A stretch of DNA of 64,000 nt from Leptolyngbya sp. NIES-3755 (GTDB taxonomy: Bacteria; Cyanobacteriota; Cyanobacteriia; Leptolyngbyales; Leptolyngbyaceae). The translations under genes and the position numbers were made by a program. Where the stretch lies: assembly GCA_001548435.1 (NCBI GenBank), contig AP017308.1, positions 2,117,030 to 2,181,029 of the forward strand, given 5' to 3'. Positions 51,489 to 55,172 of the stretch are shown in pieces; the first letter of the stretch is position 1; the number at the start of each line of letters is the position of its first letter. A model generated the notes under the pieces. It saw nothing but the letters and a program-made list of their open reading frames with translations. It was not told the DNA's origin and searched no databases.

Positions 51489-52088
51489 TTACGCGGCTAA
51501 ATTCTGAGCCACAAAATCCCAGTTCACCAAATTCTCCAAATAGTTCTTGATGAATGCTGGACGAGCATTTTGGAAATCCAGATAGTAAGCATGTTCCCAA
51601 ACATCCAGCGTTAACAGGGGTTTTTGACCATGAACCAGCGGATTTTCTGCATTCGGAGTCTTCGTCACTTTTAGCGTACCGCCATCATCGACAAGCCATG
51701 CCCAACCGCTCCCAAACTGAGTGGCTGCCGCATTACTGAATTCTTCTTTGAACTTGTCAAAGCTTCCAAAAGCCGCATCAATCTTCGCTGCTAATTCTCC
51801 GGTCGGTGCACCACCGCCACCCGCTTTGAGCGAGTTCCAAAAGAAAGTATGATTCCAAACCTGTGCCGCATTGTTGAAAACGCCAGTCTTCGACGAATCG
51901 CCATACGACTGTTTGATCACGTCTTCGAGTGCCAGATTTTCCATCTCAGTGCCTTCCACCAGCTTGTTCAAGTTGGCGACATAAGCAGCGTGATGTTTGC
52001 CGTAGTGATAATCGAACGTTTCCGCCTTCATGCCATACGATTCAAGGGCATCTTTCGCAAAAGGTAAAGGCGCTTGTGTAAATGCCAT
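51489..52088 (-). CDS. sodB: Superoxide dismutase, iron type
   Basis: Converts superoxide to oxygen and hydrogen peroxide in the cytoplasm. It has 199 residues, the usual length. Seen: PLPFAKDALESYGMKAETFDYHYGKHHAAYV with the first metal His (about 27), HTFFWNSLKAGGGGAPTG with the second, and DVWEHAYYLDFQNARPAFI with Asp and the last His. The GGGGAPTG and AQVWNHTFFW patterns favour iron over manganese. Probably monocistronic, with its own terminator. Confidence 0.95.
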   Translation of the reverse strand: MAFTQAPLPFAKDALESYGMKAETFDYHYGKHHAAYVANLNKLVEGTEMENLALEDVIKQSYGDSSKTGVFNNAAQVWNHTFFWNSLKAGGGGAPTGELAAKIDAAFGSFDKFKEEFSNAAATQFGSGWAWLVDDGGTLKVTKTPNAENPLVHGQKPLLTLDVWEHAYYLDFQNARPAFIKNYLENLVNWDFVAQNLAA

Positions 52089-52559
52089 GTGTTCAATCCT
52101 CTCTATAGTGTGTCTGCTGAGTGATTGGCAGAAACATAACTTAACCGTGAAAATTCTATCTTAAAAGGGATGGTACAGTCGCTCAACCAGAGAACACAAA
52201 TAAAAAACCTCCATCCACTAGGCATGAACGGAGGTGATAAATCAGGGTGCATCTACCATTCCCTTTTCCTGAGAAATACGCTGGTACTCCGGATGCTCTG
52301 AGTGGGAATACTTAAAGCTATGACAAAGTTTTCTTGAACTTTACGTAATTTTTGAGTAAAGAATGCGTCGATTGATGGAGGTAATTGCGTCTCAAATCCT
52401 AGCCTTGAATCGGTTTTGCATGGTCGATCGAGGCAAAAATTTGTAATGCTATTAGACGGGCGATCGATTGCCGTTTTTCCCTGACCGAGAGGGATCGGTG
52501 GCGGTAATAGAAAGAAGTGGGCGAGGAGTGCAGCGAGTCAGGTTTTTGGAGGGTGTTCA
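52089..52559. other. Gap between sodB and the CHAT gene
   Basis: 471 bp. It carries the sodB promoter next to 52088, an orphan minus-strand terminator at 52202-52235, and upstream of it on the minus strand a 32-codon open frame (52338 back to 52242) with no usable start. The right part is the leader of the CHAT gene. Confidence 0.6.
52202..52235 (-). terminator. Orphan minus-strand terminator (candidate small RNA end)
   Basis: On the minus strand ACCTCC / GGAGGT (plus arms 52230-52235 and 52207-52212), with extra inner pairing CAT-CC/GG-ATG, then six T residues. No minus-strand gene lies upstream within 6 kb, so it would end an unannotated transcript: a small RNA or a very small gene. Confidence 0.65.
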
Positions 52560-55172
52560 GTGGATCAAGAGTTCTTTATTTCCGTCACGCCTGTACGCGG
52601 TGATGAATATTGGGTGAGAACCGAACGAGTCTCGCCAGGGGTTCCTTTAGCTGAAGAACTGGTCACTTGGCACGTCGATGAATGGCTCGAACAAGCCCGC
52701 CAATTGATGCACGATCCGCTACTTGGAATTTTGCGCGGCAGAATGCGATCGCTGGGTTCTTCGACAGCCGGAACCGATGCGCTGTCTCCAAACCTGGTGG
52801 AATTGGGACAGAAACTCTACAATGCGCTGTTTCAAGGCACGATTCGCGATAGCTGGATGACAGCACAGGGAATCGCTCAGAATCGACGCGAAGGCTTACG
52901 GTTGCGATTGGGATTAAAAGGCGATCGCTTACCTCGTTTGCCCTGGGAAGTGCTTTATGCGGGAGCGCGACCGTTAGCGACTGGAACGGATGTCGTGTTC
53001 TCGCGCTATCAAGCGAATTTTGCGCCGATGGGAACGATTTTGCAGCCTCATCGACCTGCGATCGAGCTTGATCCATCCCAGCCGTTGAGAATTTTAATGG
53101 TATTAGCTGCCCCCACGGATCAGGAAGTTCTTGAACTCCGACGGGAAGCGAACCATTTACGAGATGAATTATTAAGAGATGGACAGTCTGACGGCAAGAT
53201 CGATTTAACGATTTTGGATCAACCGGGACGTGAAGAGTTAACTCAAGAATTGGAGCAAGGACACTATCAAGTCTTGCACTACGCTGGACACAGCAATTTA
53301 GGTCTGTCTGGTGGCGATTTGTATTTAGTCAGCGATCGGACTGGATTAACTGAAGTCCTGAGTGGCGATGATCTCGCTGGACTGCTGGTCAATAATGGCG
53401 TGAGAATGGCGGTCTTCAATTCTTGCCGAGGAGTTTATACCGCGACGGCTGATCCCGCTGATGAAACGGAATCGAGCAATCTCACAGATGCGCTGCTAAA
53501 ACGAGGAATTCCGGCTGTCTTAGCGATGGCAGAACGAATTCCCGATGATGTAGCGTTGACGCTGAGCCGATTGTTTTATCGCAATCTCAAGCAACGTTAT
53601 CCGATCGATTTAAGTCTAAGTCGTGCACGTCAGGGATTACTCTCTTCCTACGGCTCGAATCAGTTGTATTGGGCATTGCCCATTCTCTATTTGCATCCTG
53701 ATTTTGATGGCTATCTTCAACCCACTGCACTTCCCGAATCGAATTATTCGCTGCCAGATCCCCAGCTTGCCCTCTCAAGTTTTGCGATCGATCCTGACAT
53801 GATTACGGATGATTCCCTTGCCCTCGAAGAAGCGGCGGCGCTATTTCCCGATCTGGAATTTGAAGATCCCGAAGATAGCGATCGACAAGCCATTCTCGAA
53901 ATGTTGCAAGAGATTCGCGATCCTGAAGATAATCCCTTCTCAAAATCAAAGCCAGATGTTGGGCAATTCTTCGAGCCGATCACTGCCAATACTGATGAAA
54001 CTCAGCTTCAAGCCGCAGAAGATTGTTTAACAGTGGGCAGACTGCGATCGCAAAATCAAGATTTCAACGGAGCGATCGTAGCCTACGGTCGAGCGATCGA
54101 GCTTGATCCCCACTGTGCTGAAGCCTTCAGTGAAATGGGTAGCGCCTTGGAAACTCTGGGCAGTCCGAATGAAGCGATCGTCGCTTATAAAATGGCATTG
54201 CAGTATGAACCGAGTCTGAGTCAAGCCCGTCGTCATCTTCATCGCCTAGAAACCGCTCACAATCTCACGCCTGCTCAGAATTCAACTCCGATTCAAGAGC
54301 CAGCCATCACACCGAATTTGCATGTCGAGGAAGTGAGACTCGAAGAACCCGTCACCGATCGTATTTTTGGCGATCGTAAAAAAGCGGCTCCTTCTCGCCG
54401 TCGTCGTCCTTGGTTAGCAGCAGGAATTCTCGGAACTGCGGTTGCTGCCGTCTTAGGAGTCTGGGGTTTTTCAACTTGGAAAGCTTCGACTACGCCTTCT
54501 CCGAACGATCTTGTAGACACAGTTAGCCAACTCGGTCCCCCTCCAGGCGTGAATCCGAGTCGATCGAGTACCTTAGTCGCGACAGCAACGACTAGCTTTG
54601 CTCAAGGAAATCTGCGCGTTGGACAAGACGCGATCGAGGAACTTCTAGAGAATGGTGAAGTCGTTGCGGCTGAGAGTGCCATACAAAACGTTCCACCCGA
54701 CAAATTGAACAATGGGACGGTGAGCTTTTTGCGGGGTCGAATTGCCTGGCAAGCACTCCAGCAAAAACGAGGAAACTACAGCCTCAATGATGCTCAAGGT
54801 TTCTTTGAAGAAGCACTGAAATCGAATCGTACCCCGAAAGTGCTCAACGCATTGGGATTTGTGTACTACGCTCAAAACACTCGAAATAGTCTCGATCGAG
54901 CCAGAAGAACCTGGCAGGAAGCGGCGGAACTGGCTGACAGCACCGGAGCAAAACAAGAAGCGCTTACGGCTCGTGCTGGATTAGCGCTAGTTCTGAATAA
55001 ATTCGCGCGATCGCGAACCGGCAATCAACGCAATCAACTTCGACAGCAAGCGACCACCCTGCGCGATCAAGTGCTGCAAAATAAAGCCTTTCAGATCGAC
55101 GAGTTGAGCAAAAACTGGTATTGGAATGAAATGGCGATCGCGGATTGGAGAGCATTACTCGCTGTCAAGTAA
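52560..55172 (+). CDS. CHAT-domain protease-like protein with TPR and membrane anchor
   Basis: An 870-residue multidomain protein. Seen: an unassigned N-terminal region (about 1-165), a CHAT (caspase-like) domain (about 170-385) with the His-Cys pair in HYAGHSN (His about 244) and FNSCRG (Cys about 289), an acidic stretch (about 400-470), TPR repeats (about 485-555; NQDFNGAIVAYGRAIELDP, GSPNEAIVAYKMALQYEP), one membrane helix (about 605-625), and a TPR-like C-terminal part. The start is GTG with GGAGGG seven bases upstream. Catalytic residues are present, so it is probably an active protease. Target unknown. Confidence 0.9.
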   Translation: MDQEFFISVTPVRGDEYWVRTERVSPGVPLAEELVTWHVDEWLEQARQLMHDPLLGILRGRMRSLGSSTAGTDALSPNLVELGQKLYNALFQGTIRDSWMTAQGIAQNRREGLRLRLGLKGDRLPRLPWEVLYAGARPLATGTDVVFSRYQANFAPMGTILQPHRPAIELDPSQPLRILMVLAAPTDQEVLELRREANHLRDELLRDGQSDGKIDLTILDQPGREELTQELEQGHYQVLHYAGHSNLGLSGGDLYLVSDRTGLTEVLSGDDLAGLLVNNGVRMAVFNSCRGVYTATADPADETESSNLTDALLKRGIPAVLAMAERIPDDVALTLSRLFYRNLKQRYPIDLSLSRARQGLLSSYGSNQLYWALPILYLHPDFDGYLQPTALPESNYSLPDPQLALSSFAIDPDMITDDSLALEEAAALFPDLEFEDPEDSDRQAILEMLQEIRDPEDNPFSKSKPDVGQFFEPITANTDETQLQAAEDCLTVGRLRSQNQDFNGAIVAYGRAIELDPHCAEAFSEMGSALETLGSPNEAIVAYKMALQYEPSLSQARRHLHRLETAHNLTPAQNSTPIQEPAITPNLHVEEVRLEEPVTDRIFGDRKKAAPSRRRRPWLAAGILGTAVAAVLGVWGFSTWKASTTPSPNDLVDTVSQLGPPPGVNPSRSSTLVATATTSFAQGNLRVGQDAIEELLENGEVVAAESAIQNVPPDKLNNGTVSFLRGRIAWQALQQKRGNYSLNDAQGFFEEALKSNRTPKVLNALGFVYYAQNTRNSLDRARRTWQEAAELADSTGAKQEALTARAGLALVLNKFARSRTGNQRNQLRQQATTLRDQVLQNKAFQIDELSKNWYWNEMAIADWRALLAVK

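Follow-up and report, generated by a model that had tools for sequence, protein, structure and literature searches.

The minus-strand segment between a sodB homologue and a divergent hetF homologue in Leptolyngbya sp. NIES-3755 is, almost certainly, a gene for the small RNA NsiR1. The overall explanation that we favour, with a probability of roughly 0.9, is an NsiR1 gene that is driven by a DIF1 promoter and has the hetF mRNA as its most likely target. The locus adds a member to an RNA family that is already known, in a setting that is known too. What surprised us was to find NsiR1, known from nitrogen-fixing cells, in a filamentous cyanobacterium with no detected nifH. Positions below refer to the window, the whole 64-kb stretch of DNA that was analysed.

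The Rfam scan of the window gave a single hit at the gathering score (39 bits). This was RF02399, NsiR1, which cmscan placed at 52200–52258 on the minus strand, about 59 nt, over the full length of the model (1–60 of 60; 56.5 bits, E 1.9e-8). The whole-genome search also scored this copy at 56.5 bits, and RF02399 gave a match in the E. coli control that was below the cut-off. The earlier note had reported a strong minus-strand terminator without a minus-strand gene directly upstream of it, and both observations hold: a 12-pair stem with a loop of 5 (52235–52207, minus) is found in the terminator scan and the fold prediction and is followed by TTTTTT (52206–52201); on the upstream side the next gene begins at 52560 and is the hetF homologue, divergent and on the plus strand. 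This terminator forms the 3' end of NsiR1, and the small regulatory RNA that the note had listed among its options proved to be the right one. Six terminator-like sites occur between 51000 and 53600, compared with a mean of 2.7 (sd 1.6) in shuffled sequences, and the NsiR1 stem is one of the two longest among them. The RNA from 52258 to 52202 has a predicted fold of -22.4 kcal/mol (z -3.9). Two-sided changes are seen in at least one of 17 sequences at 6 of the 10 consensus pairs of the stem; most of its pairs are also broken in some sequences (up to 5 of the 17). At the other end of the RNA, comparison of copies shows a conserved 5' end, TGGTAGATGCACCCTGA (52242–52258, minus), the likely pairing region. 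All 17 of its positions are identical in 17 selected copies, and some array copies of family f32 differ, with AAG, CAG or TAG for TGG in some and CCTTG for CCCTG in others. A search of plasmids with the segment found nothing.

A palindromic TCCGGA (52288–52293, minus) begins 35 nt ahead of the RNA. PMC6133370 describes this hexamer at -35 as the DIF1 box, found in promoters linked to heterocyst-specific expression, with that of nsiR1 as a well-studied example. We consider it very probable that NsiR1 is transcribed from a DIF1 promoter here too. In the 60 nt upstream of NsiR1-like sites, the exact hexamer occurs only at offsets -34, -35 and -36. Among 156 distinct sites of this kind the box is exact in 112 and has at most one mismatch in 148; the remaining eight consist of four sites from the one-mismatch search with the 5' end, among them L081, which may be a decayed copy, and four NsiR1-like sites of other genomes (L009, L010, L015 and L021). 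In the genus subset, a drawn-up list of loci without L070–L083 that counts distinct copies and not all 43 genus matches, the box is exact in 26 of 36 sites and within one mismatch in all 36. It is exact at -35 in all eight hetF-linked genus orthologues, and the six copies of this genome include four with an exact box and two with one mismatch. There is also one TCCGGA near hetR, some 640–810 nt upstream depending on the hetR start taken (L007:116).

The presumed -10 region, AGGAAAAGGGAA (52259–52270, minus), does not follow the sigma-70 consensus and is assigned by its position and by a weak pattern shared among the genus copies. In an alignment of the intergenic regions of eight genus genomes, conserved blocks cover the NsiR1 5' end and DIF1, and further ones lie directly upstream of DIF1 and before sodB. 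The block just upstream of DIF1 (52298–52343; GGGAATACTTAAAG, AAAGTTTTCTTGAACTTT) may belong to the promoter of NsiR1 or to one of hetF, and the one between sodB and the NsiR1 terminator (52131–52164) is possibly the sodB promoter. The former block contains an inverted repeat, AAAGTT-N6-AACTTT, that is exact in five of the eight genomes.

The gene divergent from NsiR1 (52560–55172, plus) encodes 870 aa and matches NF045509, CellDiv_HetF, over residues 1–869 (E 2.2e-230); we call it a hetF homologue because its 767.3 bits fall short of the 1200 set as curated cut-off. On the same strand as NsiR1, sodB (51489–52088, minus) follows downstream of the terminator and is a homologue of Fe superoxide dismutase (NF007832, E 1e-73, 247 bits, below the cut-off of 348). 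The order sodB, NsiR1, divergent hetF is kept in all eight genus genomes. It was also found on contigs, identified by hetF similarity, of Pseudanabaenaceae cyanobacterium LEGE 13415, Phormidium tanganyikae FI6-MK23 and Leptolyngbya sp. Prado105, which equal the loci L052, L053 and L055 over the compared stretch and so are not independent cases. Outside the genus, a divergent hetF lies within the flank of 15 of 30 NsiR1 loci (L008–L037), a set of the top-scoring loci in which family f32 is over-represented. Four of these 15 hetF-linked loci (L023, L031, L033 and L034) have a single NsiR1 copy and the rest have several.

Elsewhere in the genome NsiR1 recurs, with six copies over the cut-off at five places: besides the copy in the window there are three that stand singly and two in tandem. 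All six have the same 17-nt 5' end; going by ORFs alone, their neighbours are of various kinds. At L002:1501–1531 the 3' part of one copy and the end of a convergent ORF of 417 aa overlap, so that this copy might also be antisense to the mRNA of that ORF. At L081:1500 (C1 of this genome, near 5778488), AAGTAGATGCACCCTGATGA resembles the NsiR1 5' end; it is without a DIF1 box and not among the six Rfam matches, and is perhaps a decayed seventh copy or perhaps a chance likeness. Each of the eight genus genomes has 2 to 7 NsiR1 matches, 42 of the 43 being over the cut-off. We found one hetR in the genome and one hetP-family gene (L070, about 1692–1342, minus; NF037966, 112.9 bits, cut-off 45). 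No nifH over the cut-off was found in this genome, which is rated 99.99% complete (best match 229.5 bits, cut-off 394), so a heterocyst role for NsiR1 cannot be assumed. Three of the eight genus genomes have nifH over the cut-off.

Two other readings of the segment were weighed. In the first, the sequence before the terminator would code for a micro-protein, or belong to a gene with an odd start, whose last residues are MVDAP; alternatively, it would be what is left of the 3' end of a decayed gene. The earlier note had raised these options on the strength of a 32-codon open frame, which is indeed present (SSRKLCHSFKYSHSEHPEYQRISQEKGMVDAP followed by a stop, 52340–52245, minus) and has no ATG, GTG or TTG before codon 28, itself an ATG. 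Seven of the eight genus orthologues keep the frame open through all 32 codons, and all eight have ATG or GTG as codon 28. Its resemblance to a real protein C-terminus does not survive comparison, however: over codons 1–28 of the eight hetF-linked genus orthologues, codon differences are 34 synonymous versus 308 non-synonymous, and the variable columns at codon positions 1, 2 and 3 number 16, 14 and 9 of 28. An earlier count over codons 8–28 of seven sequences gave 20 synonymous versus 183 non-synonymous differences, with 10, 10 and 7 variable columns of 21. This is not a coding pattern. Together with the missing start before codon 28 and an in-frame TAG in one orthologue (G197), it speaks against a protein with an odd start. 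The invariant bases are those of the promoter box and the RNA 5' end, wobble positions included, and NTG is absent from the place of codon 28 in some f32 array copies. By position, the frame (52245–52340) is the non-coding promoter region plus the first 14 nt of NsiR1, and the peptide SEHPEYQRISQEKGMVDAP is therefore a chance codon reading of both. The decayed gene end we reject because the same bases form a positioned promoter, with a box whose place is kept in NsiR1 copies across the class. A protein-coding origin of either kind thus seems to us extremely improbable.

The second reading takes the segment as a leader or attenuator of sodB, with transcription starting near 52258 and either stopping at the hairpin or reading through into sodB. 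NsiR1 and sodB do lie on the same strand, 111 nt apart from RNA end to sodB start, and keep their order throughout the genus, as noted above. Against this, sodB is absent from the flanks of the other NsiR1 places in this genome and from those of the 15 hetF-linked loci outside the genus, and the conserved block after the terminator and before sodB fits a separate promoter. We regard a sodB leader as very unlikely, and return to NsiR1 as an RNA gene in its own right.

How NsiR1 might act is suggested by Nostoc sp. PCC 7120, where it is reported to be transcribed from DIF1 promoters in a HetR-dependent manner and to inhibit hetF translation as an antisense RNA (PMC9045159). By analogy, under nitrogen stress the HetR/HetZ pathway would act at DIF1 and raise NsiR1 transcription, and the RNA would pair through its conserved 5' end with target mRNAs and block their translation. 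The adjoining hetF mRNA would be the most likely target, so that hetF translation would be limited; pairing would be in cis, as antisense, given a hetF transcription start upstream of about 52200, and in trans otherwise. On this analogy the window copy is most likely a DIF1-driven antisense or trans regulator of hetF, and we would put the chance that hetF is a target in this organism at about even. The RNA begins 302 nt ahead of the start codon of hetF and may or may not overlap the hetF mRNA. Predicted duplex energies provide modest support for hetF as a target. In this crude test, which covered five of the six copies and was uncorrected for multiple tests, 1 to 4 of 38 control gene starts were as good as the hetF start or better with the full RNA, and 2 to 7 were with its first 26 nt. 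The hetP start was also tried as a target and found no support, as 8 to 23 of the 38 controls equalled or bettered it with the full RNA and 5 to 16 with the first 26 nt. The Shine-Dalgarno sequence of hetF, GGAGGGTG (52548–52555, plus), extends beyond the usual GGAGG and is present in all eight genus genomes. It could pair over about 7 nt with CACCCU of NsiR1, which we take as a lead only; its core AGGGTG occurs in none of the 15 hetF starts outside the genus and in none of the 46 ORF starts of the window.

NsiR1 may instead act mainly in trans on other mRNAs, with the adjacency to hetF inherited and hetF not the main target in this lineage. The copies outside the window, five of the six, sit at four places whose examined flanks contain no hetF, and all six share the 17-nt 5' end. 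In Nostoc, NsiR1.4 is reported to repress alr3234, a hetP-like gene, in trans (PMC9045159), and replacing or removing the -10 box of nsiR1.1 is reported to have changed hetF-gfp fluorescence little (PMC8406250). The linkage to hetF in the whole genus sample and in half of the loci sampled outside it argues the other way. A search of the genome for perfect 13-nt complements of the 5' end returned nothing beyond the six copies, and so no strong trans target emerged. Of seven sites with one mismatch, four met no ORF by the rule of our script; two others fall within longer ORFs (L078 and L079), and the last spans a possible GTG start of a 163-aa ORF that is unconfirmed (L077). We judge action mainly on other mRNAs to be a serious possibility, at somewhat under even odds, and keep hetF as the most likely target of the window copy.

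Across 388 sampled genomes of the class, NsiR1 tracks hetR almost one to one, and more closely than it tracks nitrogen fixation, which was judged by nifH alone. NsiR1 was over the cut-off in 200 genomes and HetR_C in 194: both were present in 192, NsiR1 only in eight, hetR only in two and neither in 186. The 200 NsiR1 genomes are the 211 matches less 11 with E above 1e-4, and we infer from the equal number that they are the 200 over the cut-off. The class-wide search had stricter filters, by which weak matches were lost, and both hetR-only genomes (G164 and G238) are among the 11, each with a weak NsiR1 match. nifH was over the cut-off in 110 genomes; 76 of the 200 NsiR1 genomes have it, 124 do not, and 34 genomes have nifH without NsiR1. 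The odds ratio with NsiR1 is 2.8 for nifH versus 2232 for hetR, and the association with nifH is present but weak beside that with hetR. Because the genomes are related, the Fisher value for hetR (8e-98) makes the evidence look stronger than it is; 54 of the 388 fail a filter of 90% completeness and 5% contamination. According to PMC7377430, hetR is said to belong to the core gene set of filamentous species. We propose, tentatively and as a view that we hold to be rather less likely than its opposite, that NsiR1 is not at root a heterocyst RNA but a standing output of a HetR/HetZ-DIF1 circuit common to filamentous cyanobacteria. It would have been kept in lineages without nitrogenase, where it would adjust HetF, a cell-division protein, and through it some behaviour of the filament that is patterned or linked to stress, and tandem arrays would be a later expansion in heterocyst formers. 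As a short transcript with a marked promoter, NsiR1 would offer a direct handle on the role of the HetR pathway outside heterocysts.

The gene described here shares with NsiR1 of Nostoc (Anabaena) sp. PCC 7120 (RF02399) its length of about 60 nt and its end-to-end fit to the covariance model. Also in common, as far as the Nostoc locus is described, are a DIF1 box at -35, several copies and transcription away from hetF. The two differ in that the present genome is without nifH over the cut-off and in the arrangement of copies: Nostoc is described as having 12 tandem copies upstream of hetF, whereas here a single copy adjoins hetF and the one tandem pair lies elsewhere in the genome. We do not take the array to be required for the family, because L023, L031, L033 and L034 likewise have one copy by hetF. 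Our literature search, judged mostly from titles, found none that deals with NsiR1 in organisms of the Leptolyngbya type. A similar case is already mentioned for Limnospira indica PCC 8005, a filamentous cyanobacterium for which PMC8400943 reports an NsiR1-like RNA and which it describes as forming no heterocysts and fixing no N2, yet carrying hetR. That RNA, RNA162, is 57 nt long, and we liken it to the present one by its description only and not by sequence, promoter or neighbours.
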